NCBI GenBank assembly: GCA_963922205.1 | Contig: CAWUHX010000030.1 | Coordinates: 806,001-870,000, forward strand | Direction of reading: 5' to 3' | DNA: 64,000 nucleotides | DNA from: Romanomermis culicivorax | Taxonomy: Eukaryota > Nematoda > Enoplea > Mermithida > Mermithidae | Notes under the pieces: model-generated | Told to the model about the DNA's origin: nothing | What the model saw: the letters and a program-made list of their open reading frames with translations, nothing else | The model's database searches: none | Program-made: the position numbers and the translations under genes | In this document: one piece after another, positions 500 through 36,690 of the stretch | How positions within the stretch are numbered: the first letter of the stretch is position 1 | How the letters are laid out: every line of letters starts with the position of its first letter

Positions 500-677
500 T
501 TATTTTTTTGACGCGCCGGCCACGTGGACTTGTGCATACGACATTGATGACAATACCAGGACCCTTCCTCTTCGAAGGGGAGAGGGCTGTTGTAGTGGTG
601 CGTCTGGCTATTTATTACGCAGCATGCCTCGCACTCACCACCACGACTACAACCATGATTTCGGAACCATCCATGTA

Positions 678-750: not shown

Positions 751-875
751 TTATTTTTCTGACGTATCAGCCACATGGATTTGGGCATACAACATGGTCA
801 GGAACCCGTCAACCCAAAAAACTGCAGAAATACCTTTGTTTACACGCAACAATTTTTTTTTGTGTGAAGTGACTG

Positions 876-1693: not shown

Positions 1694-1697
1694 ACTG

Positions 1698-2330: not shown

Positions 2331-2819
2331 CAATAAGGCTACCGGTTCAATTGAAACTGCAAAAAATTAGTAGTGCATCGTGCTGCAAAAAATAATTTCT
2401 TTGAAGCCGTAAGTATTATGTAACAAAATTGAGGAATTTCGCGTTTCCCGGGACTTCGGATCCCCATATAATGGAATCGAGGACATATTTTTAAAAAAAT
2501 GAAAAATCGCATTCGAGATTGCACCCCCAAGATGCTTAGGCCGAAGTACGGAGCTTGGATATGTCACACCCATTGTGGAGCATGGTGGGACTGGGACCCT
2601 AAAAAAGTGCGTTTTTTGCATGTTTGTGGGGCCCCACCGAGCACAACTTGCAGATAGAAGCGAAATGACAAAAGGCACCCATAGTTTGCCCCTATGCCCG
2701 AAATTATGAGAAAACTCCGAAGGTTCTAGCTCTTACCGTTTTGGCTCTAGAGTGGGGGGGACATGAAATTTAGGGGCCAAGTATATCATAGGTTGACGCT
2801 ATCGCGCTACCTATGATGA

Positions 2820-3059
2820 ATAGAGTATAGTGAATTTAAAGAAATGGGTGTCATTTATGCATTTTTTTAGTGTAAATATGTCCGCATAAAGAATGACTGC
2901 GTCCTGCGTCAATGCAAGATGCATAATGTGAACGTTTCTACGACGTCAATGAAAAAAGCTCCCTCACGAGTTTCACGTCCCATGAAAAAGCGTTCAAAAC
3001 TAATCCAGAAAAGTAAATTTGGGAGCACAAACTTTTGTAAAGCGAGATCACTAAAATTA
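2820..3059. other. No feature seen
   Basis: Unique AT-rich sequence between the Helitron 5' end and the MITE. No convincing coding exon or repeat was recognised. Confidence 0.5.
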
Positions 3060-3304
3060 TATGCTGTTTTTTATAAAATACTTGCAAACAGAAAAGTGAC
3101 ACAAATCATTACTGTCGTAAAAATCTTTTACATAGAACTCTTACTGTAAGATTTTTCACTCGAAAAATTTTTGTAGGTTAGATCAGTACGCTCACGAATT
3201 TCTAGTCCTATACGATATACTGTTTGCCAGATAATCGTGAAAATCTAAAATACTACTTGCTTTCCACTTTCATTGTTTAGAAGTATTTCAGGAGAAAGAG
3301 ACTA
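3060..3304. mobile_element. 245-bp MITE with TA target site
   Basis: Starts TATGCTGTTTTTTATAAA and ends AGAAAGAGACTA, with TA on each side. It matches the element at 14154-14398 in inverted orientation over its whole length, and both copies are exactly 245 bp. Related copies lie in the introns of the DEG/ENaC gene. The ends form imperfect terminal inverted repeats and there is no coding capacity. TA duplication suggests a Tc1/mariner-type source. Confidence 0.65.
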
Positions 3305-3828
3305 TAATTTTCCAAAGTAACTCCGCGTTAAATGAGAAAACACAGGAAATGCCCACAGTCCGATTCAAGCAAGAAATATGCAAACATCTTCAGACCCAAT
3401 AACCGCATCTAGGAACTGATACAGGTCAAGTTCTCAAATGAGACTTGGGACTAACGTTTCAGCAGTATAACGACCTAGACTCTGTTGCAGATTGCTAGGA
3501 GTTTAGGAAATATGGGTTCATGAGGAAAAATACCCACTGGTCAGGAGTCTTAGAGTAAACCCTCCCTTACTCATGCTAGGATCAAGCTCTATGAATACTT
3601 TGGGGCAATAAGGTTTAACAAAAAGTGCATCTTGAGTAAATAGAAAATGAAGTCAGAAGTGGGTCATTTTTTTGGTGTTTGATGTATCTTGACCCTGTCT
3701 CCTGCTACAGCAGAAGTATAATATGTACAATTTACCTTTAATTTCAGACCAACAGATGAAGTATGTTTGCCTCATTTGCATGATTAAAAACACAAAACAC
3801 TTTGTTGCATTATAAAATTTACTCGAGG
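3305..3828. other. No feature seen
   Basis: AT-rich sequence with no open frame or repeat that I can support. Confidence 0.5.
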
Positions 3829-4544
3829 TCACATAACACGGGCAACACATGAAAAATATTTCAAAACCAAGAAAAAATCTTCTCCACTGAAGCTATCACT
3901 AACACCGCTAACCACTAGACGTTCGTAGAAGCTTTGGTATACTCTTGGAAAATCTGTCAGCTGTTTTTTCAAATCTTTGATTTTCCTTTCGTTGATAGGA
4001 TGAGTGTGTGCCTTCTGCATCGATTTCAATCAACTTGAATAGAGGGCGTCAAACGATGACCTTGTATGTTCCCTTGCTCTAGTCTTCAGATTCGTCGAAA
4101 GAGTAGTATTCGAACTACCCAAACTCAATAAGCCAATGAATATCAGGAAATCGAATTTTCTCGCCATTAAAGTCTTTAATTTCTTTGGCTAACCGCATTG
4201 CAACAAGCAATTTCTTCGCTGAGATTAAATCACTAGAAATATTTTGAACCAATAACTGATTATGATTCTTGATGTTTTGAATAATGGACTGATATTCATC
4301 TGCATGGTTAACATTTTCAGTTTTGCGAAATGTTCTTTCTATCAAGGTTGTGTTCAATAAAGACGAAACGGCCAATATGAATCAAATGTCCCCACTGTAA
4401 AATTCTCGTTCTTTCTACGACAAGAATCAGACCAAGCAACAATGAACGAGTAGGCATGTCTTTGGTTGCATAAATAAAAGCCATTAAATATGAGCAATTT
4501 TCTTTACACCTACGACCCGCTTTGTTTTCAGTCCATGTAAACAT
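3829..4544 (-). pseudogene. Possible decayed exons downstream of rGC-A
   Basis: Three overlapping or adjacent minus-strand open stretches lie here: 4544-4317, 4375-4115 and 4029-3829. The middle one includes LLNTTLIER and a stretch with QSIIQNIKN and LLVAMRLAKEI. This resembles, weakly, the part of rGC-B made from its exons 5 and 6 (VLNTMVER, then SFLQTIKQ, then the ILVCLEHE region). The reading frame changes between the pieces and splice sites do not chain cleanly. It may be the remains of the rGC-A ligand-binding domain, an unrelated gene fragment, or chance. Low confidence. Confidence 0.2.
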
Positions 4545-5394
4545 TTAACCATTTTCTGATGGACCTGAGACAACGTGTACACCAAAGTTGTGAAACCATA
4601 ACTAGCGCAAATAAAAGGCTACGGATGTTGAAATTTTCGGCGGATTCAGTGTTTTTGCAAGTCATATGTTAGGAACATGGTACATGGAGTATTTTCTTCT
4701 GTCATACACTTCATAGTAAACTTAAATGCTTTTGTGTGTTCCACAGAAACCCAACTGTACACAGAGAATTGTACAACAATAATGTGATATGTGTGAAAAC
4801 CTATTTAAATGTAGTGTTTTGTCACAATGGCAAATGTCCAACAACACCAACAAAACACAAACCTTCAAGGTTAACAAGGTGTTATGTACATAACACTTGT
4901 CTAAAAATTGCATCTTTTTTGCATTATATCTGGTGTGCTTTGTCAATATTGCGTTTTCGTGTATAATGTTTTTCTATGTTAAAGCACATGTATTCATGAG
5001 GCCAAAACGGTACGTAACTCCTTTTTGCTAAAAATGCCACATAACATTCAAGTTTAGTTTAGTTATAGATTACGATTATTTTTTTCCTAGGAGTAAACCA
5101 TTATTCAGACCTCACCCGGATAATTCTGAAATGGGATTGCTACTTACGAATTTTAAGTGTTAACAGTAAAAGAATTTTCCTAAACATTTTTATTCGTGTC
5201 AGAGGAAAAATTACAAGAGGACTTACTTCTACAACTCCGAAAATAAAAAAAAATTAAGTTGCTAAAAAATTAAATAAAAAAACAAAGTTTTGACATCTGC
5301 AATTGTAATTTCATCTGAATATTATGTGTTCCGACAGGTTGAGCAATCCAGCCTGGGTTAAGGAACAAATTGTCTGCTCCCGTAGCCATTCTAC
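4545..5394. other. Intronic or intergenic sequence, nothing seen
   Basis: Lies downstream of the third recognised rGC-A exon. If rGC-A continues, this is its third intron. No repeats or exons were recognised. Confidence 0.4.
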
Positions 5395-6549
5395 AAGGGT
5401 TACAGGTACTATCCAATCGGTCTGCTTGGTTAATACGAATCCCGATGCTTAATTGATCAGACTCGAATTCATCCCATGCAAAAATGAATCTGATCTGAAC
5501 GTAGTACATCTTCTCCAAAGAATGGACAGAAAGGTTCAAACAGCTCAAACAGATTAAACCGTGTGATCATATCAAGATTGTTCAAGGGGTTTCTGGTACA
5601 ACAAAGCCATTGCTTCCAGCAACATTGCTAACAAAAAGCCATATTTATTTTCAAGAAGAAATTCATGCGCCCACTACGACACTACCATTAGCACATGTTA
5701 ATTTCGAACCTGATGTTGGCCCCCGGCAAGAGGTTTTCACGGTGTATCTTTTCCATTGCTACAAATATAGCGCCGGCGGACGTGGAAAAGCCGATGCGCG
5801 AGTTGATCAATGGGATGTCCTTGGGGAGCATGACGCCGATGCGAAGGTCATAGGCGCCTTGCGATTTCTTGCTATCTAAATTAATGCAAACATTCGCTTT
5901 GACGTTATTTCACGTGCCCTAAGTAGAAAGACGAATTTCGTCGAAAAATAAGAGAGAAATCAACAATAGCTGTATATTGTAGACTAAGCTCATTAATTCT
6001 CTTGCGAGAAAAGTATTGGTTTATCCATAATTTCGAAATTGACATATTTCAACAAGAGCTATCCTACAATTCTAGCTTGACTAAACAATAGTATGATTTT
6101 AAAATTCTGTTGTTATGGGACACGAACTTTATGGAAACATTTTTCCAAGCTTATTTCCCTGAATGTGAAAAAGAGAAAATAAAGTAACTTGTTGAAATTC
6201 TAAAATATCATGTTCCCACTGTGCCAAAACAAGGCGGACATCAGCTCTTTTTACTCGAAAATATCCTGCGCGAATTCGAAAATATTCTGTGACAGTACTT
6301 TTTTATTTCAAATGTGAAACCTTGATTCGGGTCAAGTGCATGCCTAGAGGAAAGTGCGTACAGTACTCTAAAATATCTAGCAACACATCTTTTACTCGAT
6401 GCATCGATGCTACTGTATGAATTGACATCTCGTTTCCTGATAGAAATCAATTCATCACTATTGAACGGAAACGATCTCGAATCGTCAAAGTTAATCACGG
6501 AAAAAGAATTCGCGGTCGAAATGAAAGCAAAAAATAGAAAAATTCCCAT
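5395..6549 (-). CDS. Receptor guanylate cyclase paralogue rGC-A, first three exons only
   Basis: Exon 1 (6396-6549) starts at ATG 6549 and encodes a signal peptide (MGIFLFFAFISTANSFS). Exon 2 (5710-5875) encodes LRIGVMLPKD...GAIFVAMEKI, the opening beta strand and helix of an ANF-receptor ligand-binding domain. Exon 3 (5395-5489) continues with WDEFESDQLSIG. Splice phases are 1, 2 and 1, identical to exons 1-3 of rGC-B, which lies upstream on the same strand, so the two are tandem duplicates. In the family this extracellular domain binds peptide ligands or ions and controls an intracellular cyclase. The transmembrane, kinase-homology and cyclase exons are not recognisable in the remaining 5.4 kb. 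Either a large intron runs out of the window or the gene is truncated. Exon 3 end is the least certain boundary. Confidence 0.65.
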
Positions 6550-14575: not shown

Positions 14576-17500
14576 TCATCCATCCAATATTTCCTCTTGA
14601 GTGCTTTGCTGGGTAAAATTCGCCATTGACTTGTTGGCCACGGACTCACTTACGGATTCCAATTGATTTCCCAATTTTCGACCCAGTAACCAGTAGGTGA
14701 ACATTGGTCCTTTAGACTAAAGAAATAGAAAATATTTCGAGTAATGGTAATTTCTATCTGAAACTGAAAGAAAGCGAATAGTTGACTCGCCTGAATTTTC
14801 ACTAAGAATGCATGGCGCAGAAAAGTGACAAAACTCTAGAGATTGCAAGAGACAAATTCCTGGTGAATGGTTATCTTGCAGAAATTTTGGTAAAGTTCAA
14901 AACATTCTTGAAATGTCACATAAAACTATACTCCATTTTTTCCAAATCAACTTGGGAAAAAAATTTGCTCATGCAAAATAAAATGCCTTTTTTCTCAAAT
15001 TGACTGTAGCAGTGAGGACTAGAAGTTGGAAAATAAAATTTTGGCTCAATTTGCATTTTTATTACCTGCCTACAGATTTATGTGGACATGTTTTCATTCC
15101 GAGATCTGTTTAAATGAATGGACTACAGATGGTTTTAAAGCCATCCATTATTACCTATGGTTAGAATCATTACTTTCAACATGATTTCTCCACGAGGTTT
15201 AGTAATATAACCGCCTATTAGCTCGATCAAGTAACGATTGGTTTCTTCACTGATGTGGACACATGATGCTGAAAAAGGTTATATGTAGCTTGAATGAAGC
15301 ATTAATTTGAACTTTAAAAAATGCATACGTTTTCCGCTACTTTCCATCAAGTTAGCTACAATTACCGTATCGCCAAAAATACAGTATTTAGGCATAGTGG
15401 AGCCGACGACACCGGCCACGCACGGTCCTGGGATTTAAAAGAGTGAAATTTTTTGCCGAAAGAATAGAATTATTAGCAAGTAAGCAAAGTTTTATGAATA
15501 GACATGCATGAACATTTGGTGGAAACTCAGACCAGTACTATAACTTGGCAAAGAGATGCCAAGTTTTGCTCTGCCATCCATGGTTCAAATTATCCCAAGT
15601 CTGAGAATAGATAATGGATATTCAATCTGCTGATCATTGGCTTATCAATTCAGCTTGACTTAATTCTACATATTTCAATTTTCGAGCCTGATTTTTGACC
15701 GATTTCTGAAAAAACGAAAAGACTCAAGAATGCGTACAGATTCTTAGGAACGCTCGAAGAGATTCATTCTTGTGCAGAATAAGTTTCCCACTCTGCTTTT
15801 GATCAAAATGACGATATATTTATTCATCAGAAGTAGAAATTTTGAAAAAATTCGGATTTTGCCTGAAGACAACCTCAGAGTCGATTATCCTTGAAGCAAA
15901 TACAATGAATATCATTTTAAAAATCCTCAACTTATTTTGTTCGGTAAAGATCCTACCGTATGATAAGCGTAAAATTTTCTGCATTTTGACTATGACTATA
16001 ATTATATCAAAATGTTATAGTCTGTTTTTCTTAAAATGCCTGTAAATCTGTTTAGGCAGAATAGGAAGAAAGATTTCGGCATGCTTACCTGTATGAATCC
16101 CAATTCTGACTTCCAATTTGTCATTGGCCAAGTGCGGTATAACGAAAGATTTGGTGGCCGAAACTAACTGCAGAGCTAAATCGGCCAAGTTACTGGCATG
16201 AGCATTTCCGTTTTTGACCGGCAACCCGCTAGTGCACATGAATCCATCGCCAACAGTAGAAAGCTGAAACAATCAAAGGTAATGGTTTGATCAGAAACGA
16301 TTATTTTGCACTCTTACATCTTCGTGAGGGTTTGGGGGATTTATCACACCCAGAAAGTGTTTGACTTCATCCAAATTTTCATTTGGTCTGCACGCAAATA
16401 GTGACTTATCAGGGTGCACAGTCATATTTTATTCCAAGTGTTAATCAATTCCTCTCACCTTTGGCTCTGTCGTTTCTATCCTAAAAGTCTTTGCGTAGGA
16501 GGAGTTTCCATCCATTTTCGTCTCAAGATTCGCGTTATTATTCTTCTTAAGGCCCTGTCATACTTCACCGCGAGGTAATGCGCGGCGGCACCGCTGGTAC
16601 CCCTTCCAAAGTTCAACTCAAACGAAATTTTCGAACAACTCATGTGTTAGCTGTAATATATTGTTGTTATAACACATTGATGCATACTATAACATCTGTA
16701 TATGCAGTTCCATCATATTTTTTACATGAATTGTGAATTATTACACTTTTCAAGTATTATTTTATTACGCTTCTTAATAATGCATGCACAACAAAGAAAT
16801 TCTGTGGGGACTCAGTCAGTACAAGCAACATGCTTATCTAACATCCAAGCAGCATGTTTTTCAACCTGTATTAGACAAGTATGTGAAATTATTTGCTTGG
16901 ACAGCATTTTTTAAAGTTTGAACGCTACTTGTTTGAATTAAGTATGCTTCGTTTGGAGAGATCGTTTTACTAGGGTATCATTTTCATTCATGATGACTTC
17001 CTCTTCTCTCTCGATCATTTTTTCGTTCATCATCTTGTCAATCATTGCAGGGGAATCAGATCTGCTGGGAGGTCAATACCCCCAAACCTCCCTCCACGTG
17101 CATGTATGCTACATTCGAAAAAAAATCATCCTACATTCTGAAAAATCCATGATTGACAAGTTTTGGCCATGCACTCAGAAATTTTCCCAGTGAAGTTTTT
17201 CCTGTAATTTTATCCCATAGGTATTATTAATGACGTTTTCAGAAATAGATTTTCAGGAGGATTGGAAATATGTATAGTTCGTTTTTATAAAATGTTTCTA
17301 AATTGAAAATGGACAAAAAATAGACCGCCCTCAAAGTCGTTTACACAAACCTTTACAATAGGATTTTTGGCGTAAAAAATCGTGAGGATCAGTCGAGCAG
17401 ACTCTGTAAATTATAGAAATATAAAATGATACTATTACAAAATTTACAATGGAGATATGAATATGGAAAAATTATTAATATGAAAAGTAGGTGTAAACAC

Positions 17501-20500
17501 GTTTCCACGGCCTGATGTTGTCTTAGCAATAAGCCACGTGCAATTAGCAGCTGCAAAAACGATTAAAAACAAGAGTGCTTGCAAATTTTTCGAGAAACTT
17601 TTTATTCAGAGAGCAAAATCCGAAAGTAAAAAAGCGGCGCCGCGCGGCGCTGCGCGGTACCTCGCGGTGAAGTATGACAGGGCCTTTAGTCCTAAGACAC
17701 TTCGGCTCTTCTATCTATTTCGCATAGAAATCGCAGATAGTGTTTTTTGAGAAAAAATTTTTTGTATCATTGTCTGTAATGCATTTTCGTGTTGTTTTTT
17801 CTCTTGCATTGAAATACTGTGCCCAGAGTAGGGCGTGTTCTTTGTCTTAGAAATAAAAGGGTCGTTTCCGACCGCTTGGCCCGGTTTGTGGTTTACCCCG
17901 TCGAACTGATTAGAGAAGTGACGGTGACCCCTTGGAGCTCCAAAGAATTCCCCCAAAGGTGTTTCAATCGTGTCCGGGTCTTTATTGCGTCAGAAAGAAA
18001 ACCAGTTTGGAACTCCCGAGAACTGCAGGTAGGTTACTGAGGGTATACGAGCCACTTAAAGCAACAAATTGGGCACCAATCGATGGATCTTTTTGAGATG
18101 AGAGAAGCATGATCTACAACGCACTTCATCAAAAGTTCGACATTGACTATAAGTTAAAAATGAATCATCCCTGAAAATCCGGTACATAAGGTAGTTTTTA
18201 ATGTTAAACATTTCCGGTATTTATTTCACATGAAAGTCAAAATTCGCGTCGCTACAATATTCAAAACTTTGCAATTTTTTTCAATTTTCAAAAATTTTAT
18301 GTTATATGCACGCGATTCAAAATATCAAAGCATAGAAAATGATGCAATTCAGTTTGATATTTAATCTATACATTTTACACTTTTGACGCTATTGGAAGGT
18401 GTCAAAAAAGAGGTGAAATGAAACCGAGAAAATCATCTGGAATCTTTTCCGGGCACCTTTCCGTAGGATGACACATAATTTTTTTTAAATTTTCATTAAG
18501 CATTACTGTCCAACATATTTCGTTAAAATTTTAATCCGATTTGCATACCGTGCATCTTTACGTATTAAAAGAAAAAATGTGGTTCGAAGTCCTGATAAAT
18601 GTTCGATTCATCCAGCTTTAATGGTTGCTGAACGATATGCTTCAAATCAGAGATCGAAATTTTTGGAAATTTTCATTAAAATTCATAAATCCAATGACTG
18701 CTTGACATTTTATTCACAGGAATACGGCGAGTTACTCCCTTTGCTGTAGTGAAAAGGCACTGTAATCTCTTATCATTTGATTTGTTTTCATTTGGCTGAC
18801 GTGACGTAGTGTGGCGCAGCCGGTTCGAAAGCGCAACCTGTATCAAAACAGTAGCGGGTTCAAAAGCGCAGCCGAAAATTTCAGAAGCGGAGCATTACGA
18901 AAAATATATGAAGGCGACAGTTTATTTTCACAACTAAGTTTAGAGATTCTAAATACCAAAATTATAATTTAAATAGTCAGTCGTTTTTCTTTTCTGTTCA
19001 TTTTGGCTTACTTTTTCATGATACAGGGTGTCTTAAAGATCAATTGTTAACGTCATAAATATAAAAGCTTATAAAATTCTGTCATTTAGCTTTTTTTGTA
19101 CATTTCTGTAATGGACGTGGTTTTTACTATAGGGATGTCCTAGGCCGCCTTTTTTAAATGATATTTTTTCGATACTTTTTTACAGCCTTCGAAAACATTT
19201 TTTTTGCATATAGAATGACGCAAAAATTTTGGAGGAAATCAAGTTTTGTACTCAGAAAAAGATGCAAATTAATGAAACGGAAAAGAAAGAGAGACGGTGA
19301 AATGGAACAAAAATAAGGCAAGGCAGAAAGAAGGACGTAAATATAATAAAATAGAAAACATGTTGACAACAATAAGATAAGTAAATCCCTAGTTTTTACC
19401 GTAATCTACCTCGTATTATACTCCATTCATTTCAAATGATCGATGCAGCGATCCCGTGAAAGTACGTTCAACACAGAAAAACTGTTGAGGCTTATTACTG
19501 TAATGAATGACGGAAATTTTTCGTTCATGAGTGGTAAACAGAACAGCCGAAAGTTTCATCTCATAACCTCGTTAAATGGTCAAACTTTATCGCGTAACAT
19601 CCAGGTGTCAAACAAACTTCTATGGAAATCAAAAGTTAATAAGAAGCGTGGTCTTTATATGATTTTCGCTCTGGAAACACACTAAACTACGGCATGTATG
19701 AGAGGCAGACCCGCGTTTACAGAAGTCACGCCTTAAATACTGTAATAAAAATGTGAAATTAATTACTTGAAATTTAGCGTTTTGATTTTTTTAATTTGAT
19801 TTGATTGAGATTTGAAATTTAGAAATTGAAAATTGGAAGCTGCCGGTCAGTGTTAAGTGCAAACAACTTCTTTTTACTACAGTGAAAGATCACATATCAT
19901 TTTAGCCGGAGTACTATCAATAAGCTGAAAAAAATCTTCAACTGCATTCGCTGTACCTATTCTCATGCATGAGCTGACTGTTAACCGCTTTGACGTGTCC
20001 CTAATGGTCCGGGTATCGTTTGAAAATATAGATTTTGTCACAGGGTACATGTAGACTGTAAACTAAAAACTGATCTAGGATTGAAGAACAGAGGATGAAA
20101 CCCAGACATGCACGGCAAGAATTTTCCAGGGGGGGAGGGTCCTTAGACTTTTTATTCAGAGGGCAGGGGGATGGGCGAGCAAAAAAACAAAAAAAAGTTC
20201 TGAAAGCTTGTTTTTCATACAAAATATGCACAAGAATCATCAAAAAAGCTATCTTGAAAAAAGTTCAGGAGGGTTTTTGACGAATTTTTTTGGGCCAGGT
20301 GGGGGGGGGTGGCCAGGGTCTCAGGTAAGGGTTTACCCCCTACCCCCTATGTGCATGTATGGATGAAACACAACATGACGTACTTTGATGATTAAATGCT
20401 TGGAATCCAAACTACAACTGTTGGAAGACACAATAGAACATCGGACGTTACTTTCTCAACCAAGGTTATAGTTACTTTTCACTTTTATTTAGAATCCTAC

Positions 20501-23500
20501 AGTAAAATTGCATTACTTTGTAGGCGTCATACTCGGATATAACGTCGTCGAAAACTGAATACAGTTCGTTCAAAAGATTGACAGTCTGCAATGGCGTGCT
20601 ACGGGCAGAAATGACTGAAAATCCGACCACATCCGACAAAAGTATGCTGACATTGTTGAAAGTTTCCGGGTCGCACATTTGGCCGGACTTCAGGCGATCG
20701 GCAACAGCCCTTAAGTTGACGAGAGAGTTGAAAGTAGTCAAAATCATTAACTCCGTGAGAACGTGCAGAAATTCAAATAATGTTTTACGAAATTACCACC
20801 GTCTCGAAGGAGAGTGCTTGTGAATTTATCAAAATGCAGTTACGGCAAAGAAAGCTTAATTTTCAGGTAAAGTTCATTGAGTTCTGTCAATTTATGCCGG
20901 CCTTGTCGTGCTTTAAAGTATAATAGACCATACATGGCTTATATTCATGGATCGCACTACTGCTCTATAGTAAATCCTGAGAGTAACTTCCTCTCAGATG
21001 AATACAAACTAATGAGCTTACTTCGGCAACATCCTGTACAGTAGCAAGTCAGCCTTTTTGGCTTCTTCGGTCAAAACCCTAGTTCTGTCACTGATTTTTT
21101 GCTCCAAGCCCGACGCATATTTCTCCATCATTTTCAAAATATGATCCATCAAATTGAAATTCCTGGAAAATTGATCAGAATAAGCCAAACGCAATGATAA
21201 GATTCTGATATATTGTAATAGAAGTGCCGGAATTCAGCTCATATTCAATGTTGGAATTTCGAAAAGAATCAAAATCTAGAAACCACGGTATTCTAACGTC
21301 AGCGAAAAGATAACTTTTTTACGACGCTATTGACGCAGTGCTTGATTTCTATTTATTCAATGCACACTTTACTGAGTTTTATCTCGTCTCATTTTTGAAG
21401 AAAAATAGAAAACGACAGGAATTAAAAAGACATGTTTCCTACGTAACAAATGTCTCGATTTTTTCACGATGGTTTTGGATATTTGTATGATTATGACAAA
21501 TACTTCTATTTCGACGAAGTTTGCTCTATTAAAAAAAGCATACTTTCCGCGGGCCATTTGCTTCATCAACGATTTAACGTGCTTGAAATTTGGTCGAAGG
21601 ATAGGATCTTCTTTCCAACAATTGTTCATAATTTGAATCATGGCCGGATCGACGTCGTTCTCTTTGTCCAATTTGACAGTCGGTCGAAAAGGTGGGCTTT
21701 CCGTTTTGGCTACTCTTTTTATAATGACTAAAAGGAGATGAGAGGGGAGTGGTATAAAGAGTAGGAGTAAAAAATATGTGATTGTCGGTATTCTCATCAG
21801 GAAAACTTTTCAACATGTTTTTTCATTCTAAATACTGAGAACGTGCATGAAACGTTTGAAAAATATGTACCTTGGGATACGAAATAATTCTGAGAACACA
21901 AATTCGTCAAAAATTACATAAATCATGAATGTGACAAAAATTTCTTTATTTAATTTTTTCTGGAAGTTTCATTGATTTTTTATCATAATTTTTGATTCGG
22001 GGATATTTTCCACGAATGAGATGTTATGAACACGATAAATTCCTTGTTGTGTCTACTGTATGCCAATTTTAGATCAGTTTACTTTCTGGTATTAGATTTT
22101 CCGCACAAAACGGTCTATCACGTAGTAAGACTTCTTGGGTAAGAATGGCAAAAGCATAGACGTCGCCCGGTTGGGAGACGGGCAAAGAATGCGTATTGGT
22201 CGATATAAGGAGTTCGGGAGCCGTCCACAGCTTGTCTAAAATATTAAAATGTCTTCCTGAGATCAAATTATCAACATTAGATCTTTTCCTGACCCTTGGC
22301 ATCTTTTGATTCGACCCGTAATTTGTTCAAACCATAGTCGGAAATTTTGCACACCCAACGACCGTCGACCACGCAATTGCTGGACTTCAACTGACCATGA
22401 GTCAATATTTCGGACGAATGCAGGTATTCCATGCCCTGTGTAATTTGAACGCTTTACGAAATTTCACGTCATAAACGCAAGATATGAAATAGACAATAGA
22501 AGTCTCTGGAAGTTTTTTTTGTTTCCGGAAAATACTCAACTCTTCCAGATTTGCACGTTCAGCCCTCCCTGGTTCAAAGCTCAAATCAAATCACCTGAAA
22601 AAATTGTCAGAGAAGATACTGATAACTTTATAAATTTTCATATTAAATTTAAAATTTTCAATTTCTCTTGCAGCCGATTAGGAAAGCATGTATGCAAAAC
22701 TGAAAAGAAATTAAGCGTTTTCACGGGTACAAATGCATTGTTAGATCACGACGAATTTTATGCAAGTTCTGATCTTGGGTAGGTACGAGTGAATATGACT
22801 TTGGTCCATCTTGATTACTGTACTAGAGGGCATTTGACGAATCTTTTTGACACGTTATTGTAGGATCTCCGAATTATAAAGGTAACTTACAGTAAAACAT
22901 TAAGATTGTATGACAAGCTGATAACCAAGCTTACCGATACTACATCGCGCAAAAGCGAATATTTGAAGAACCAATCAAGTTTAACTGTATCGGCGTGTAA
23001 TATGTCCTGAAAATACTTCTGATTCAGAAAAACGAACGCCACATTTATCGTTTTTAGATATCTCACTTCCAGGCTTCCTTTAGACGCATACTTCCAGAGG
23101 GATATGGGCTGAGGAGAATCTATGCATAATCCAACAAATACGTTCAAATTATCGTGAACCATGTCTTTCATCTGAAAGCATGTACTGAATTGATATTCCC
23201 TAGATAATATTATTTAATACATCGTATTATTTTAAAAATTTTTATGCAAATCTATTTTATACAAATTTCCATGGTGGTCAAAAAACCGAAATACTGGGAG
23301 GCTTGCAATACCTCAGCCAAGTAGGCAAAGACTGTTCGGATTTTATTACCCAGGTAACTTGTCAACGCAGGTTTCTTGTTATGAAATTTTACACACACGA
23401 TTGAAACATTCCTTGAACAATGCTGAGATACAGTAATCAACTTTTGTTTTGCAAATAATTGATCTTTAGGTACTCGAATGAAAATTCTATGTGTCCGTAT

Positions 23501-26500
23501 TTGATGACAAAATTTAAGCTGTAGTCATTAGCAAAATTATTACTAGTATCAGTAAAATTAGTAGTTTCCTAAACTTTCAAGTATTTCTCCCAACGCTGCA
23601 AGGTCAATGTCTTATTTAACAAATTTTCAAAAATTTAATTTTTCAGCAGTATATTTCTAATTTATTGTTTTATTTGAATATTTAATAATTTATTTTAATT
23701 TCAATTTATTTAACTTATTTAATAAACAGTATATATTTTTTAATTTTTATAACCTGCAAAAAGGACTCATGAAAAGGATACCTTTCAGGCAGTTATTTCC
23801 TCAAGACACATAGTATTTTAAAGTTCAAAACAGCTTGGTCGTCACACAGAATTATACCCCATGGCAGTTACTGGTCGAAAATAATCATGGTAGGTACAAT
23901 CGACCTGCTAATTCCTGCCATCATCTGGTTGATTTCTCGCATAATTCGAGAAAGTGGCAAACTAAAAATTACACATTTCAGATGTTTTTGATCCGATTCG
24001 TTGCTCAAGACGGCGCTGACTTCGTGATTTTTCACAGTGACCAAGATGCCCTTGTGGTGGGCTACATTTTTATCACCCTTGGCCATGGCCTCGTTAGTTT
24101 CGTCGGATGCCACCGTGCTGATTGTGCGCAAAGAACCAAGACTTTTGCTGCGCCTGCTCTGAAGGTAACAAATTTTAGACACTTTTGCAGTATTTTGCAG
24201 CAAAAATTCGAAAATTAGTGCACGCATCAATAAAAATTTTCTTGTTTTAAATTTTACTGACCTTATCATTTAGGAAAACAATATCTCTGTAATTGATTTT
24301 CCACAACATTTTGCCGAGTTCGTTGCATAACATACGGCGTCTGAAAAATTCGCAAAAAAATTCGAGAAAATGATGCAAATGCAGAGCAGATATTACTTGA
24401 CGAAGAAGAAAACGCCTACCGTTGAAAGTCCAACCATCAGAAAACACATGAATGCTCCGATGGCGACCCAATGTGTTACTGAAAGTAAAGAAGCAAAAGT
24501 TATGACACTTATTCCAATGTATTAATGCCTGTTTCAATCTGGATAGCACTTTCAGTTTTAGCAAGTGAATTTTGTGGATATCTCTGTGTGAAAAAACCTG
24601 TTAGTTATCACGCTTTGATCCAAAATTATTGACATGACGTGCCTTGACAAATTGAAAAGTTTTAATGAAATTTCGAATGGTCTTGTGTCTCTTTCAGAGT
24701 AAGAAGCCAAAAATACATTGCAAAAAATCAAAAAATGCATGCGTGATAATAGCAACAGAACAATGAACTTTGAAACTTTTCTTATATACATCCCCCATTT
24801 TAATCTACGACAAAAGAAGTTCACTCACTCGATTGTCTTACAACGACGCATTTTTCATTCAAAAATCCACAGTCAGGCACATCTTTTGGCGCAATACCAT
24901 TGCGATTCTCGAACAAAATTTTGTCTGGTACCAAGACGTTAACAGTCTATGGGAAAGATAATGAGCCTTTCACAAAGCGGTTTTATAAGAAAAATTTAGG
25001 CTCTGTTAAAATTTGAGATCTGGAAAAATAATTTGTTTACTACTAACGAAAATATCACGTTTTCAGCAACATGGAGATTCTTCATTTTCCAGAAAAATCC
25101 GCAAAGACCAGAATCTGGCATAACATACTTTTCCATCAGAATTCGACATCAATAACTCGACAACTCTGGTCATTTTCATGCCTTTATCAAAAATACGAAC
25201 CACAAAGTTCGGTTCCCTCGTATTTTGGCTGTCGATAACGACTTCTCCGGACAAACCTGTAAGCAAGAAGAGGACGCAAGTATTATGGACCTACTGGTTG
25301 TGTAAATCAATTACCCAAAAATCTGGTATTCTTGGTGTTATTCGTTATCCAACGGGTATCCTCGATTGTGCCGCCCTGTTGCAGGGTTTTGTTCAGCGCC
25401 AAGGCATACAGATAGATGGAATCGTGTAAGAAGGGGCTGTAGAGTGACCCCTGAAAAATGATGCTTCCATAGGATCTGATGCAGTGAAGATAATCTATTA
25501 ATATACGCTTACGTATTGGTCTTCAACGTTCGAGCTGTCGATAAGGAATGGCTCCTCTTTGGCTTTTCGGATGATTTCTTTCTTGAAATAGTGCAACTCG
25601 TCGTTCGAAGATGTTAACATTTCGACCTGAAAATTTCGTCCACAAGTTTGGTAGATTCTATTTTGCCTTTCAAAGTATGTTTTTTATGGATTTTTATGCG
25701 ACTCTGTTTGAATTCATACTCTTTTGAGAGTTCGCTGCAGTACGTGAATACAGTGATGCGATTCTCAGTTATGTAGTATGATTTGAAGGAATGACTTTTT
25801 TCACTTCGACTTTTGATATTTCAATGGTATCACGAAAAACCGAGTAGTGAGCAGTATGTTTTTGGTAAACGAATTAAGTAATCAGAGCTCCATGAGTTCT
25901 ACCCATCAAATAAGACCACTTTTTGTTTGATCAATCTAAAACTGTCAAAGCTCGACTCATGAAAATTAATGTCTCGCACATTTACCATCATTGTAGCTCT
26001 GAAAGCTTTCTTTGCTGCTTGATCCATGTTATCGATATTGGCGTTCGAATCCATGTCTAACCACATTTCGCTCCTATTATTGTCGCGTACGAAATCGGGC
26101 ATAATGAAAACGTACTCGTCATTGGTCATCTCCAGTTCGTGAGCTTTAAGCATAAACCGGCGCATGTCTCTCTCATGTTCAAGGCATACGAGAATAACTG
26201 GAACAAATTTAAAATATGAAAAATCAAAGTAATTGATCAAAATTTACGGTACAGTTTCCATGCCATAAATTTCCGTAAAGGATTCGGGTGAAAAGCTTTG
26301 CAACTTCTAACTACAGCATCAAAGGGACCTAAACGACAGTTGAGCTCTAGCTTAAGCTGCAGCTTACGTTTCTCGATATGTTTTGTGTAGGTTGCAGGTG
26401 AGCTGCACCTTAACGGAAGTCTATCGAATGTCTCGCTTCAATGGGCAGTTGATTCAAAAATATAATGTTATAGTATATTCTGCAAATCGAATAATGCAAA

Positions 26501-29500
26501 TGGTCAATTATCATCAAACAAGCCTTTTATCAGTTTGGCAATTTTGGCCTCTTTAATTAATTTTCTCTACTTTCTAATATTCCAATCCTATCTCGGTTCT
26601 ATTCATTTTTTGAAAATTTCAGTCTTATGATAGTTAATTTTTTGTTTTATGTGTTTTTTATGAAAGGATGCGCGGAAGATAGATGTGAACTGCCAATTCC
26701 GGTTCCGATTCTAAATACTTCAGTCTGTAGTTAATTTCCTTCTTGATCAACTATCAACAATAACTTCATTTGGAAATTTATGCTTTGTAGAATTTTTAAA
26801 ATTCTGAACCGTATAAGAGTAGCAAATGTTGTGACAAACACAACCACGTGTCTGCAAAGCATTTGGAGATTAGGGTTGAACCACGCGCAGAATTTTATTG
26901 AACTCATCCATGAAATGCCGATAAGCTGGAAGATAAAGCGTGACAATTATTGACTATTAGGATGTCCCACGTGATACTCAAATTTGACCAAAGTTGTGGT
27001 ATGATAATCCTGTTTTCAGATACTTGAAAGTCTAGAATTTTGGTTATAAATTGGATTATAATCGATGTATTTCGTGAAATTCACTCCGAAAACATTATTT
27101 AAAACGTTCTATTTAATCTTGGTTTTGACCTCTTCCAAAATTTTTTTAGTGTCGATGTATACGTGCAATAACTAAAGGCACAAATTTTCAAGTCATATCG
27201 CTTACTCCTTGCAAATTGTTTTATCGTTTGCAGAAATGACATGATTTCGTCATCGGTTGGTGAAATTCTTTCCACCATCGTGTTCAAAACGTTGACTATC
27301 CCAGCTTTCAACAACGTTTTCTTCAAACTGTCGACTATGGAGTAGCATCTTCGGCTAGCGTTGTCGTCCGTATAAAAAGAGGCCACTCGTTTCCAATTGA
27401 AGTGAAGCAACAGTTCTTTCAAGGCGCGTCCCATTCTGTGTTGAAACATGGAACTAGTTTACTGTAGCGATATAACAGAGTCTATATCACTTCAAGGCAG
27501 ATCCTATTACTCTCGACATGGTAGGGAAACGTTTTTCGTCGCTCAACTCCACTAGCGTTGCTGCCCAGCTTATCATAGGTATGTTGAAAAGTTTGGCCAA
27601 AGGAGCAACGGCTAAAGCAGCTGAAAAAGTATTGAATTTATGAGTTGTCATAAACATGGGAGATGATCATGCACATACAGTAAGGAAAATCTGGTGGAGA
27701 CCAAGTGGATTTCTGTTAAGCTTTCATCGCCCACAAACTCGGTCAAAAATAGGGGCGCAACATTTGGAAATACGTTTTTAACATATCTCAACGAGATTTT
27801 GTCGATTGAAGTCCGATTCGTTGGTTATCAAAAAGCTCGGTTTACCTCTAGATGGTAAATTCTGAACGAGGTCAACAGCTTTCGGAGTGTGGTCAAACAC
27901 TTCGAAGTGAGGTGAACCCAGCTGATGGTTGGATAGGATGCTTTCTTGCGCATGCATTTTTTCATCGAGTTCACTATGTAAAAATTCTTATGTTCCTGCG
28001 TCTAAAACAGATTTTTTTCTCTAAAGTCCATTATCTTCAAATGAGCCTCAGATTATAAAGAATTCAGGGGCAGATAACACTGCTGCATCGTACGCCAATA
28101 TTTCCTTCTTTTAAGTTGTCCTGATAATATGGTTTCGTTTTTTCAAGCATATTTTTGCATTCGAGGTTCATTCAAAAAAAAACTATGCGTATAAATTTCC
28201 AAAAGATCGCTGTTTACTTGTTGCACACGGCGGCCCGATCATGACATCTATCTTTCTATTCCGCATCATTTCGATGCTATAGCCGACAGCAGTGGCGTCG
28301 TTACACTCGTCAAAGTTCACGACGATGCTAAAAAATTTGAATTCGTGTCATTGAGGAAGCCTTCGAAAAAAGACTTGAAATCTCTGTATATATGCACAAG
28401 AAATGCGAATATATAATATTAAAAATCGTTGGAAAGCCAAACTGATGCAATACTGCACGCATGTAATGAAGTCAGTCATTAACGAACAGTCAATTGCACC
28501 TTCATCTGCGCAACTATAAATCCGGGTTTAGGGCCGTGTTCACATCGTGTTTCAGCGCTAACCATTTATCGAGAAGCAATTAAACAAGACCATTTTCCTC
28601 ATCAGCATTTATCATAATTTTTTAGTATTAATCACGTCTAATAATAACGATAACTAAACATAACTAGCAAAACGGTTATCCACCATCGTGTTTTAATTAA
28701 AAATTTCCTCCGTTTGAGCAATGTTGAACTAAATGGGTGGGAGTACTTTTTGGCTACATTCAAGCTGTTTTTCTAACGGTTTTCAGTGATGATATGAATC
28801 TTTGAAAATGAAAATAGTGAGCTTGCCATTCGTACTCTCATTACTTTGAGGGCTGTGAATTCCCATAAATGCTACTTTATACTACCCGAAAGAAATGAAA
28901 CAAACTTTTTAGTCAAAACGGGACAGTCGTTTCCAAAAGCATCCAAGACCGATTGGAAAAGATGGAGGATGAGGATGATCCGATTGTGAATTTTCAAGAT
29001 AGAAAGCAGTTGAATAACCGGCCTATGCTCGTGGTTCCCATGGTTTACAAATCTTTATCTGTAGGCTTGTCTGGGACATATCGTAATGTAAAGAGAATTC
29101 AGCTGAGAAACTGGATGCCTCTGTTAACGTTTACTGTAGAGGTAAAACTACACGAATATTTTGAGCTTCATATGAAGATTTAAAGTCCGTGCTATAGTTC
29201 GCACAATGTTTGTTGCTATAGTTCAGCCGGAGTTGTCCGGCAAGTGGTAGCTTGGAATTGAATTTTCTATTCTTTAATTGTTCAATTTTTGTGATTTCGA
29301 TTATTATTATTATTATCGTTTTTATTATTCCGATTTTTCGAAACGTTTTAATGCAAAAATTGAGAATTAAAAAAAAATTTTCTCCTGAGAATGTCCAAAC
29401 AAGGAAAAATATTTTTTGATATAAAATCAATTGCCAAACCGGCGCCGGCCGGCAGTAGCGCAGAACCGGCGCCCGCCGCCGGTTCTGAGCTGCTACACTT

Positions 29501-32500
29501 CTACTACACTACTTTCACAGTCGGTCGGTTCTGAGCTGCCAATCTACTTTCAAGACGGCAGCGCCGACCGGCCAAGTATAGCGGGGCCTCAACTGATCGA
29601 ATAGTGGTACATCAACAAAGAGAATGGCTGTTTAAATAAAGATTCAGTTCCTTATTGGAATAACGGGATACTCTGCATTATTATTATGATATTCTTCATG
29701 ATAATGGACTACGAAACAAAAAGAAATGCACACGATGAAATAAAAATAATATTTTTATATGAAACTAGAAATGGTTAATTTTCTTCAACTTTTTCTTTTT
29801 TTGGTCGCCCTAGTCCTGTCTACCAAATTTTTGGCTAAAACACGATGTTGAATAAGGATTAGTATTAAACATAATTAGCGCTAATATTTTAACTAGGCAA
29901 GCTCAAGGCCTTACATAGCTAATCTTAAACACGGTAGTTGCGGCCAACACTTGGAATTCTATACTAGCAAGTTGGTTGCACCCAGTCTTTCAGTCGGTTT
30001 AGTAGTTCTGGGGCCGGTTTCCGGTACGTAAGTTATAACTTAAGTCAGTTCTAGACTTAAGTTATAACTTACTAAGTTATAACTTGAGTCGGTTTCCGGT
30101 ACGATTTAAGACATAACTCAGCGAAGTTATAACTTAAGACTGACTTAAGTTACATCTTGAATAACGTTTTACTCCCATTATCTTCACAATACGAAAAATC
30201 AATAAGTTAAGTTATAACTTAAGTTATATCTTAAATCGTATTATGGGGTTACGGCGAATCAAAAACGCCTACTCAGTTTACACAGCGGGTAAAAGTAGTC
30301 CGCAGCATTGTTGCATCATGCACAATATGTTTCATTTCACTTAAATAACGTCCACTCCTTCACTACGAATGCTAACATGAGTGAGAAAAAGCGAGGTAAT
30401 AATTGGACCACGGCCCAAATTGAACGATTAAAGGACATGTGCATCGAAAAACGTGGAATTATAGAAGCCAAGCACAACGACGCTGATATGCGAGTGAAGA
30501 AGAAACGAACGTGGGAATTCATCGTCAACGAAGTTAATTCTTGTTATCCTGCCAACAAAAGAAATGTCGACGAAGCGAAGAAAAAATGGATGAATTTGAA
30601 AAGCCTGGCAAAGAAAAAGAATGGTGCGGATAAAAAAGCTTTGCAAGGAACGGGAGGTGGGCCATCGTCGTCTCCAATGCCTCAGGTACTTGAGGACATC
30701 GTAGATGCCTACAAAAAATCCGATAGTTTCAACGGGATTCCGTCTGGGATTGATACCGAAGATACCACTATTACGTCAGATTTAGAGTGAGTACTTGCAC
30801 GTATAATTTACTTAATAACGCGAATTATTTCTTGAAGAATGTTAAAACGATATCCTAATAACACTATCGAAAAATGAATGAGGTTGCACATTAAAGTAAA
30901 AGGAACTAGTATAGCCATTAGGCAACTGCCAATCACTAATGACATAGTGTTTAAATCAAAATAAATTTTGTAACCGACTTTATAAAACTATTTCGGTGAC
31001 GACCGTCTAAACAAATTACGAATTTAACAGCGTAACATGAAAATCTTATTTAAGAAATGAAAATGAAATGTCGTAGCGATCATACATTGACAGTGGAAAA
31101 ATTCTAGGGGATTCATACCTGAAAAGTCGGATGAAGTCGAAAAATGTGACAAATCTGCTGAAACGCTGTTTTTAGACGTTTCTCACCATGCTGAATCTTT
31201 TTGATCAATAGAACCAAGAATTTTTCCAGAAAATTTCAAACAATTAGCATAGAATTTGAAGCAAAAGAGTATTAATAGAGTATCACTTGATGCTGCTTGA
31301 GACATTATTTATGACCAATAGAAAAAATTACTTCATCAACAATATTGTCCACAAATTTTTTTAAAGGATATAGTGTTGAAACAATAGCCAATAAAAAGTG
31401 ACTTTTAATTTAGAATCTGTCGAACATTGAGTGTGCTCTTTCAAACGTTATTTATTAATTTTCATATCAAAGGATCATATGTACTTTTTTCCCCTCAATA
31501 AATATCTCACTTTCGGTACTGCGTTGTTTTGATTAACAGCTTTAAAGATTTTTTAAGTTTTCATGATTAGGTAGTATAGTGAAATAAAAATTGAAAATAT
31601 TCATTAATTAATTCCAGAAATGAATCCGATGTCGATTACGATATGGTCGGAAAAGGTCCAATTTCCACAGCTTCCAAAGTTCCGATAAAGGCTCCGAAAA
31701 ATGCGGAGAATTCGGTCACACCGTCATTACTTGAAATCGAGAAAGCTCGACTCGATATCGAGAAAGAATCGTTGGAATTACAAAAGGAAACGTTTGCCAT
31801 GAAAAAAGAACTGTTCGAAAAGAAAAAAGTGAAATTAGATTGGGAGATTCATGTGTTGAGACTGAAAGCTGATAAGTTGAAATCTAGTTACAACCTCACC
31901 GAGTTGAAATAAGTTTTATTATTATAAGAATCTGTTTGAATAAAATGTGAATCCGTTTTTCGGACCAGACTATAAATGGAAGTATGAATTCGCAATGTGT
32001 AATCTAAAAGTCTTTCCGTTTTCTGGACCCAGTGCGTCGTTGTAATCCGCAATCTCAATGCCTTCTAATTCGTCTTCAAACACATCATCAAAATCTCGTT
32101 GATTCCGATCAATCGCTAGATTATGCAATATACTAGTAGCAATGATGAGCTTTGTGACTTTAGATGGTTTGATACGAACTTCACCATGCATAATGTGGAA
32201 GCGTCGTTTCCATCTACCAAACGTTTGTTCAATGATGACTCGTGTGCGCCTTAAAGGAAGCACAATAATTTTTTTTATTCACTCAAAAAATTTTTTTGTT
32301 GTCTAAACGTGCAGCAAAATTTTAACTATAGAAAAATTAATACTGCGGAAAGAATATATCAGGGTTTCAAGCCCCCCCTCCAAACCCCCACCACGCCCAT
32401 TTATGGTCTCCAGTTTTTCATGGTGACTTCAGGAAAAAATTATTCAATATTGAAGCATAAAATTACATAATTTTAGCTGTATAAATATTATGACGCTTCC

Positions 32501-35500
32501 ACATCCGAATATGTTATTTGTAAAGGTGAAAAAGAACAGAAATATGTTCTACAATTTGACATTATTGTTGTGCTGAAATTCTTTGAAAATTAAGGAGATA
32601 TATTTATGCTTGATTAACATATTATCATGTTATTTCTGTTTTATTTCTTCAAATTTTGATCTATGAGATAACAAAGGGAATTTTCTGAATCAAGAAAGCA
32701 GTGAAATATGCCTACCTATGGGCTGCGTTAAAATTCAATTGATTACGATTTTCCGGGTTCCGGAAAGGCGTGAGTAACCATGGTTTGCAAGGGTACCCGC
32801 TATCGCCGAGTATGAATCCGTCTTCACGACCGGCTTCAAATTGCGCGTTTATCCGGCTTTGAGACCACACAAAAGCATCATGCGTTGACCCTGGCCACTT
32901 CGCGCAAACGTTCAAAAATCGTCCTTTACTATCACAAATACTTTGGACGTTGATAGAAGGAAAATATTTACGATTAATATAGTCGTTTTCATTTTCAGAC
33001 GGTCGTTGAATGCGAATATGAGTACCATCAACTAATCCTAAAACGCCCGGGAAATTTGCAATTTTGTAAAAGTCCGATTTTATTTGATCGCAACGCCCTT
33101 CGACCGGAAACTGTATGCCGGAACTCATACGATTCAATATAGCGCTAGTTACTTTCCAAACTGTTTTGCATGCAGCACTTTTGGTTATACGAATATCGTC
33201 CCCACAAAAAATTTGAAACGTACCAGTAGCATAATATCGCAAGGTCATAAGAACTTGTTGCACTGGCAGCATGGCGTAATTCCTCTTCGTAGTATTTAGT
33301 TGATTAGCTAATAAGTCCGTGATATGCAAAATACTTGGACGATCGAAACGATATCTTTGATACAAATCCACGTCATTATATATATCTAGAGGATTAGATC
33401 GGTCACGAAATATTCTATTGATGCGAATGTTGTTTCGACGTTCCTCGTTCAGCAGCAATAAAAGTCGACCGACCATTTTTCGAAAACGCAAGAAATGATG
33501 TACGAGTGAAGTGTGAACAAACCGACATAATACACCTCGTCGTAACTTTAAGACACCTACCCACCAGTCTTAAATTTCACGCGAGTTAAGACATAACTTA
33601 AATAAGTCAAGACTAGTCTTAACGTACCGGAAACCCATTTTTTTAAGTCTTAACTTAAGTCATATGTTTAAGACATGTCTTAAAGTTGAGCAAAGTCTTC
33701 CGTACCGGAAACCGACTTAACGGTTTAAGTTAGAACTTAAGTCCGACTCCGACTTAAGTTGCTTTCCGGAAACCGGCAGCAGTAGTTTCATCAATAGTCG
33801 ACGTCCATTGATGCAGTAATCGCTTCTTTTGATTCAGTATTGCAGCAGTCCCCCTTTCTACAGAGTGGAGTGTACGAAGTCGCATATTGCGAAAACCAAT
33901 CAATATTTCACAGATTGATTTTTTTGGAAAATAAAATTTCAACGAAAGCATCATCCAAACTCCGTTAAGGACCACCGAAATATTGAGGAATTACATCTTT
34001 TCCTATAGTCCATTTATTTTCAAACGAATCTCGAAATTCGAAATAATCTCAGAAATCCGTGAGCAGATAATAAACCTGCATCGTATATCGAAATTTTTTC
34101 CCAAGTTTATTTCCTAACTGCTACGGTCAGTTGGAGAAAAGAGGAATCCCTGCATGTAGGTTGTTAATTTTATGCATGAACATCTTTCCGCGCTCAGAGG
34201 CTTATTTGAAAAGCATAGACAATAATGGTGTTTCGACTACTCTCAGAGCTGAATATCTGAACACACGCTAGCAAAAGCTCTGGACAAAAGTACTGCACTA
34301 ATCATGCTAGTTCTAAAATTTAGCACGAGTCCGTATTTCTACACGAAGGCACGACTGAAGTAGTGCTAAAATCTTTTGCAAAATGTCGTTGTTTCGTCCG
34401 GAGAGTTTACAGATCTGATTGGAGCAGGTTTAGCGGTGCACGAAATCATTCTTTCGTGTGAAAACCCATGGAATAAGACGGCCTCATTGACTTTCTCAAT
34501 GACGTATAATAACAGAAAAACGATATCCATATATATAATGACTAGCTTATTAGAAAATGCCCCGATGGGGCAGAAAAAATGAGAATATACTTGCTTCGAC
34601 AGTTGCCATGCTAGAAGAAGGAGTGGACTAGATTTTTGAGAACTTGGGTCAAAGTTGGAAAAAATTCACTTCCTTTATATTGTATTTTCATTCTGTCTCA
34701 AAAAAATTTTCTATGTCTGTGAAGAAGTATATTCTGCAGCATCGTGCATTTTGTCCTTCCCCTGGCATTAACTACAGCAAAACTTTTCTACATGAAAATT
34801 ATATGCACATGATTTCAAATGTAAAGAAATGGTAAACCAATAGCTTTCTAACTCCCGACGTATTCAAAATTCTTGCCTCTCACACTAGCTGAAAAATAGT
34901 GAGGCAGGCATATTATAATCATTTTCAGAACTATAAAGAAACCTGAGACTGGTTGCACTAACCCAACATGAGGATAATCTCAACATCGGGACTAAATTGC
35001 TGATCCAGAGTTGAGCTAATCGCAATGTCAAAATTATTTTCTTCCAGTGCACAGACAATACTCACTTCAGGATTAACTAATACTGAGATTTGATTTCGCG
35101 TTTGGGAATTGCAGACATTTTAATATTTATTCGCTTTAGAGATAAGAAAATTATTCGAAAAAGTTAGTGCAACCCAGGGTTTTTTTGCCGGAGGCAAATG
35201 AAATTTTTTTGGGGCAAACGAAATTAGAGTAGTCATTTGTACATGTACAAACGGCTCTTTGCCATTTAGGGAGGAGATAAGGTAGAGAAAATATGCATTT
35301 TGGTGCATTTTAGAAGTTCATAATCTCAAAATTAAAAAAATAAACTTTAATAATCATAGGCAGAATATACTTCTTCACAGACATAGAAAATTTATTTGAG
35401 ACAGAATGAAAATCCAATATAAAGGTAGTGAATTTTTTCCAACTTTGACCCAAGTTCTCAAAAATCTAGTCCACTTCTTTTTCTAGCATGGCAACTGTCA

Positions 35501-36649
35501 AAGCAAGTATATTCTCATTTTTTCTGCCCCATCGGGGCATTTTCTAATAAGCTAGTTCACCTCCTTTTAGTGGGCCTCAACCATGCACGAAAACTTTCAT
35601 AGAAGCACATTGAAGTTTTAAATTTGGTCATCTACTTCAAAAAAACAATAAAAAAACTTCAAGCAACGAATTCTCACCTCCGGCGAAAGTAAAGGATGTG
35701 TAAACCGCATAGTACTTTAAAAACGTTGTAAAGATACTGAAAGGTGACCATATCTATTGAATTGCTCATGGTTTAGAATCCTTCAACCCAAAAATCGCAG
35801 AAATACCTTTGTTTACACAAATGACTTTTTTTCGTGTAAACTGACTCCGTCCATTGAATTCCCCATGGTCAGAAACATCTTCCCTCAAAAATCATAGAAA
35901 TACATTTCTTTACATTCAATATGAATTAGTGTGTGAGGTGATCACTTTCATTAAATTCCCAGTGGTCGAAAACCCCTCCCACAAAAAACTCACGAAAACA
36001 GGCTTGGTTAAATCCGGAATATTTTTTTTGTGTAAACTGACACATCCGTTGAATTCCCCGCAGTTAAAAACCCCTTCCATAAAAATCACGAAAATATGCT
36101 TGTTTACACCTGCGATAGTTTTTTTTGTAAGATGATCGCATTCGTCAAATTCTCCGTGATCGGAAACCCCGCCCACTGGGAAATCACGAAAATACGTTTG
36201 TTTACAACCGGGATAAGTTTTTGTGTGAAGTGATCGCATTCATCAAATTCCCCGTGGTCGAAAATCCCCTCCACAAGAAAATTACGGCAGTACGCTTGTT
36301 TACACCGTGAATAATTTATTTGTGTCAAGTGAGGACGTCTATTGAATTCCCCGCAGTCGAAAACTCCCTCCACTGAAAAAACACGGAAATACGCTTGTTT
36401 ACACCCGGGATAATTTTTCGTGTAAAGTGACCGCGTCCATCAAATTCCCAATGGTCGAAAACCCTTGCAGCCCAAAAATCTCAATAAGGCTACAGGTTTA
36501 TTTGAAACTGCTAAAAAATTAGTAGTGCATTATGCTGCAAAAAATTATTTTTTTGAACCCACAAGTATTATATAACAAAATTGGGGAATTTGGCGTTTTC
36601 CGGGACTTTGGACAACCATATAATTGAATTGAGGCCATATTTCAAAAAA

Positions 36650-36690
<41 letters not shown>

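Follow-up and report, generated by a model that had tools for sequence, protein, structure and literature searches.

Can a receptor guanylate cyclase that has lost part of its active site still belong to a working enzyme? The question is raised by rGC-B, a gene on the minus strand of a 64,000-nucleotide stretch of Romanomermis culicivorax DNA (C30:806001-870000 of a 359 Mb assembly; hereafter the window, whose coordinates are used throughout). The original prediction had described a receptor with a well-preserved but probably dead cyclase domain, kept by selection for a non-catalytic role, for example as a regulatory partner or a decoy. Our analysis suggests instead that rGC-B most likely, with a probability of about 0.6 as judged from sequence, belongs to a heterodimeric receptor guanylate cyclase, as the half that provides the metal side (C1/alpha-type).

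The gene model comprises 24 exons separated by GT-AG introns, and its frame has no stop until the terminal codon after 1106 codons, in agreement with the original prediction of a complete and open gene. The exons were placed by hand and are least certain at the two extremities of the gene, in exon 1 and in the final part of exon 24. In order, the protein shows a signal-like N terminus, an ANF-type ligand-binding domain, one transmembrane stretch, a kinase homology domain and a class III cyclase domain, and thus has the extracellular domain, single membrane pass and intracellular domains of a receptor (membrane) guanylate cyclase. Pfam matches were obtained for ANF_receptor (residues 79-429), a kinase-like domain (578-817) and Guanylate_cyc (887-1071, 190 bits), and the signal and membrane stretches were assigned by eye.

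The region singled out by the original prediction (15174-20709) corresponds to exons 20-23, which encode the cyclase domain (Table 1). The same exons were chosen by spliced alignment of the cyclase domain of mammalian GC-A, and their lengths (193/175/99/95 nt) are identical in L031, another cyclase locus of this genome. In the tandem neighbour rGC-A (L029), the GC-A query gave 175/99/95 nt for exons 21-23 together with a different exon 20, and the rGC-B query gave 193/175/99/95 nt, an answer towards which that query is biased. Since the GC-A query itself carries Glu, Asn and Arg at the positions in question and yet picks these exons, and since exon lengths are shared, exons 21 and 22 are supported independently of RNA.

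The alignment with GC-A from the PDB is free of gaps through the key motifs (SDIVGF/KVETIGD/VNTASR in GC-A, SDVVGF/KLSTVGD/VIVANL in rGC-B) and bears out the three announced replacements, namely Ser939 for Glu, Ile1018 for Asn and Leu1022 for Arg; only their numbering as 961, 1040 and 1044 has to be corrected, each value being 22 too high. Both metal-binding residues, Asp899 and Asp943, are kept, as had been stated, and so are Arg990, Cys1011 and Lys1060. At least three (Ser939), one (Ile1018) and two (Leu1022) base changes separate the codons from those of the expected residues, so that one base-calling error does not explain the three changes. Moreover, we examined the Glu column together with the 48 columns that are invariant in GC-A and in ten other membrane guanylate cyclase domains. 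rGC-B is changed at 11 of them; of its five changes that score 0 or less in BLOSUM62, three fall on base-side catalytic columns, of which there are five (hypergeometric p = 0.005 in a test chosen post hoc, after the data were seen).

rGC-B therefore lacks the base-side Glu, Asn and Arg that an active homodimer combines with both metal Asp residues. It has the residues of a C1/alpha-type half, in which both metal Asp and the phosphate Arg are kept and the base-side Asn and Arg are lost. Because the losses are confined to the base, ribose and phosphate side and the metal side is complete, rGC-B could supply the metal half of a site to a partner. Inactivity is expected of a homodimer but not necessarily of a heterodimer.

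Complementary receptors in the same genome

The assembly was surveyed with the Pfam cyclase model, which gave at least 67 exon-level matches, and with the rGC-A domain in a protein search, which gave at least 61 matches, all within loci already collected. The collection comprises 25 loci that contain cyclase exons, plus one flanking stretch (L034); spliced alignment was used to model the domains and was repeated for nine loci. The resulting residue table has a row for each of 26 domains, 25 from the loci and one from the window, of which 16 were read as membrane guanylate cyclases; this number is a lower bound, since both searches score the best candidates only. The class labels are our own reading rather than a database assignment, and the alignment of L027 is poor. 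Outside the 16 stand L018, L030, three rows read as adenylyl cyclase (AC) C1 (L014, L020, L026), three read as AC C2 (L015, L021, L027) and two distant rows (L019, L033). The cyclase exon of L018 (G000:C585, at a contig end) is near-identical to that of L016 (G000:C413) and is probably an uncollapsed haplotype or a recent copy. L030 (G000:C11) was read as resembling soluble guanylate cyclase (sGC), with Ala at the Asn position and Glu and Arg kept; its best PDB match is GC-A (168.5 bits; sGC alpha-1, 146.8 bits), and counting it among the 16 would add another domain whose base side is incomplete.

Nine of the 16 membrane-type domains are complete at all listed residues. Three keep the metal side only: rGC-B, rGC-A (Leu for Glu, with Asn and Arg kept) and L032 (Gln for Glu, Lys for Arg). 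Four keep the base side only, with Ser for the first Asp and with Glu, Asn and Arg present (L022, L023 and L024, all on C227, and L025), and no domain has lost both sides. By residue count, rGC-B would form one complete site with 13 of the 15 other domains, that is with L022-L025, which complement it, and with the nine intact ones, which qualify too; none is predicted with itself, with rGC-A or with L032. rGC-A was accordingly rejected as a partner, being without the Glu.

In the tree, rGC-A and rGC-B are sisters (89/90, under the tool's star), and together with the intact L031 and with L032 they form a clade (100/97) in which L031 and L032 pair (97/92). The base-side-only receptors L022-L025 group in a single clade (99/97), next to the intact C37 group. 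For these four and for L031 and L032, as much as 9.9 kb of upstream sequence was aligned to rGC-A. A kinase homology domain was found in L022-L025 and L031, from this alignment and not from Pfam, and extracellular domains were found in part, with no stop in L024 (L035) or L025 (L038) and three stops in L022 (L036, in a poorly aligned part). L023 (L037) has one stop, and no convincing extracellular end was seen upstream of it in the rGC-A alignment. The stretch upstream of L032 (L039) has one stop and is convincing only over the final part of the kinase homology domain and over the linker. L031 (G000:C7) and L032 (G000:C50) are the close relatives of the tandem pair. L031 has complete listed residues with altered metal loops (SDVPSF, TIND), and its PDB scores lean to C2/beta, strongly so for AC C2 (-5.5 bits for sGC, -28 bits for AC); it may be a further base-side subunit.

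Taken together, these observations suggest how rGC-B might work. In vivo it would pair with a receptor bearing Glu, Asn and Arg, the likeliest candidates being the base-side-only receptors L022-L025 and the intact ones. Ligand at the ANF-type domain would switch the pair on via the kinase homology domain, and cGMP would come from a single site per dimer. It is also conceivable, although we think it rather doubtful, that the receptor cyclases of this genome are partly split into interdependent classes, metal-side (rGC-A, rGC-B and perhaps L032) and base-side (L022-L025). Were this true, members of the two classes would make cGMP only when co-expressed, a combinatorial AND-gate with up to 12 receptor pairs.

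Constraint and alternative explanations

The comparison with the tandem neighbour bears on whether rGC-B is still kept by selection. Among the 21 exons from 3 to 23, 20 are equally long in rGC-A and rGC-B (rGC-A having been modelled from rGC-B). Nonsynonymous divergence (dN) between them is 0.21 in the cyclase domain, 0.21 in the linker, 0.27 in the kinase homology domain, 0.32 in the extracellular domain and 0.33 around the membrane, and the proportion of silent sites that differ, 0.74-0.85, is at saturation or close to it. The pairwise dN/dS ratio was therefore dropped; it was finite only for the cyclase domain (0.066). The low dN places the cyclase domain, with its lost residues, among the better-kept regions of the protein. 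Thus, the original claim that selection maintains a role for rGC-B, as opposed to decay, is supported, with 3.3 kb open and a cyclase dN of 0.21 against near-saturated silent sites.

Among the alternatives, a non-catalytic rGC-B survives best, although we consider it unlikely. As a dominant-negative form, decoy or scaffold it would bind ligand or a partner without forming any site, which agrees with the absence of a complete site in the homodimer by residue count and with the retention of the extracellular and kinase homology domains. A pure decoy, however, need not keep the metal Asp residues, the phosphate Arg and the LSDVVGF and TVGDG loops while losing the other side alone, and the cyclase domain is no less constrained than the extracellular domain. 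The original prediction was therefore near the mark with its regulatory partner, whereas its 'probably dead' and 'decoy' are not favoured, given one-sided losses, an intact metal side and four related receptors that carry Glu, Asn and Arg but lack the first Asp. 'Dead' is probably the wrong word for this receptor.

Less likely still is early decay after the tandem duplication, with rGC-B drifting towards a pseudogene and rGC-A carrying the function. The rGC-B branch is indeed long (0.39, against 0.08 for rGC-A), and a relative-rate excess in rGC-B was found with four of four outgroups (chi2 4.5 to 9.5). Nevertheless, its 3.3 kb remain open over 24 exons with intact splice sites despite near-saturated silent sites, when a stop would result from 415 of the 9873 point changes open to the aligned rGC-A codons, and dN is 0.21-0.33 over five regions, which is not what a pseudogene presents.

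It is improbable that rGC-B is an altered but self-sufficient homodimer, acting as a weak or other-substrate cyclase; the retention of the metal Asp residues, Cys1011 and Lys1060 speaks for it, but the base-side Asn and Arg are gone and the nine complete paralogues keep both. A wrong gene model or an assembly error, with other exons restoring Glu, Asn and Arg, is very improbable: the model was built from genomic DNA, but its exon lengths are common to rGC-B, L031 and rGC-A, tblastn (E 1) revealed no further copy of exon 21 or 22 within the window, and Ser939 lies three base changes from any Glu codon.

Several points weigh against rGC-B as the metal-side half of a heterodimer. Its closest relative, rGC-A, keeps Asn and Arg. 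The tree needs few independent loss events, base-side loss amounting to two changes, and with four metal-side and three base-side losers the lack of a double loser would be expected by chance with P = 0.39 if losses were independent, so that its absence among the 16 is suggestive only. L019 and L033 depart on both sides, and counting them as membrane guanylate cyclases would break the pattern. L032 is changed at 10 of the 48 invariant columns and may be decaying itself. In addition to its longer branch and its relative-rate excess, rGC-B has 26 unique changes against 8 in rGC-A (outgroup L031); this faster evolution would fit specialisation, but also some relaxation. The higher score of rGC-B with sGC alpha than with sGC beta (score to 6jt0_A minus score to 6jt0_B) was dropped as support because intact controls come close to it or exceed it: rGC-B reaches +15.9 bits, the intact L009 +15.3 and the intact L011 +19.5 (rGC-A +4.2, L031 -5.5, L024 -11.2). 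Even for the C. elegans receptor pair ODR-1/DAF-11, hints of homodimers exist and formal proof in native cells is outstanding, according to passages of PMC8045692. Finally, pairing of rGC-B needs a co-expressed partner.

Features of the window

Table 1. Position of rGC-B, its cyclase exons and other features (window coordinates).
Feature	Position	Strand	Remarks
rGC-B, receptor guanylate cyclase	14576..39573	minus	24 exons, 1106 aa
rGC-B exon 20	20517..20709	minus	first metal Asp899 in LSDVVGF, codon 20633-20631, kept
rGC-B exon 21	16089..16263	minus	Ser939 (16260-16258) for guanine-binding Glu; Asp943 (16248-16246) and Arg990 (16107-16105) kept
rGC-B exon 22	15329..15427	minus	Cys1011 (15383-15381) kept; Ile1018 (15362-15360) for Asn; Leu1022 (15350-15348) for Arg
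rGC-B exon 23	15174..15268	minus	end of cyclase domain, includes Lys1060
rGC-B exon 24	14576..14716	minus	C-terminal tail; GTAAGT donor-like site at ~14653, so tail end provisional
rGC-A, 5' part, tandem neighbour	1..6549	minus	continues outside the window on C30 to ~787621; start codon 6549 by eye
Transposase gene, DDE_Tnp_4	33474-31974	minus	86 bits, first exon
Opposite-strand open reading frame region	~30.4-31.9 kb		by eye
Inverted repeat	34541-34737 / 35360-35556		arms of 197 nt, 97% complementary, 622 nt apart
DEG/ENaC amiloride-sensitive sodium channel exons	41338-45963	plus	Pfam ASC in the two outer open reading frames tested
Long multi-exon gene	~49278-63911	minus	von Willebrand D domain in one open reading frame; second one tested without Pfam match

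Intron 2 of rGC-B, 10.4 kb long, houses the transposase gene in the same orientation as its host; the open reading frame region on the opposite strand beside it may be a companion of this transposase. The same intron contains the inverted repeat, perhaps a young foldback element or one resembling a miniature inverted-repeat transposable element (MITE). The sodium channel exons lie upstream of rGC-B on the opposite strand, and the long gene beyond them perhaps encodes a large lipid-transfer or vitellogenin-like protein. The SL1 22-mer was not found with up to one mismatch, nor was Rfam SL1 among the best 50 of 149498 candidates, where the control was likewise without a match; these searches lend no support to a nematode that uses SL1.

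Comparison with known cyclases

Class III cyclases have active sites between two subunits, one of which provides the metal Asp residues; the guanine Glu/Cys, the ribose Asn and the phosphate Arg belong to its partner. According to passages of PMC3591389, the corresponding residues of human sGC are D486/D530 of alpha and E473, C541, N548 and R552 of beta, and a table in the same article gives no activity for alpha or beta homodimers. Mammalian GC-A (ANP receptor 1) and GC-C, described as homodimers in a passage of PMC5225109, align throughout the rGC-B cyclase domain and are its best PDB matches (243 and 205 bits), but in contrast to rGC-B both keep Glu, Asn and Arg.

The C1 half of AC resembles rGC-B at the active site: both metal Asp and the phosphate Arg are kept, and the Asn, the Arg and the base-selecting residue are replaced (IKILGD/VTLANHME in AC5 C1 from the PDB, LSTVGD/VIVANLME in rGC-B). 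In the three rows of this genome read as AC C1, both Asp are likewise kept, with Thr for Asn, Lys or Gln for Arg and Lys at the base position. AC C1 differs in being fused to C2 in one chain and in having Asp at the Cys position, whereas rGC-B is a receptor that crosses the membrane once, carries a single cyclase domain and retains the Cys of the guanine site. The alpha subunit of sGC keeps the Glu of VETIGD and loses Asn and Arg. rGC-B departs from it by the loss of all three and by its domains outside the cyclase. The likeness would lie in the part played by alpha in the human enzyme, where, as PMC3591389 describes, alpha contributes the metal Asp residues and beta the base side of a heterodimeric site.

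Among receptors, the nearest parallel by description, rather than by sequence, is DAF-11/ODR-1, presented in passages of PMC5225109 and PMC8045692 as an obligate heterodimer in which each receptor contributes essential residues to one composite site. Residues alone do not decide pairing, since the fungal rhodopsin cyclases RGC1 and RGC2 are, in the relevant passage of PMC8815786, obligate heterodimers though the residues known to matter are kept. In the portions of the literature covered here, experimental support for obligate heterodimeric receptor cyclases comes from a single pair in C. elegans, and GCY-4/GCY-22 offers hints of the same; no title on a catalytically split receptor guanylate cyclase appeared among the matches listed for pseudocyclases or for pseudoenzymes and receptor guanylyl cyclases. 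On the present reading rGC-B is no longer a dead receptor but probably one half of an enzyme built from two receptors, with named candidate partners, and a second genome with two complementary, phylogenetically separate receptor sets makes the pairing idea testable. Most likely, rGC-B is a further example of the already known heterodimeric type of cyclase, to which the complementary receptors in the same genome add interest.

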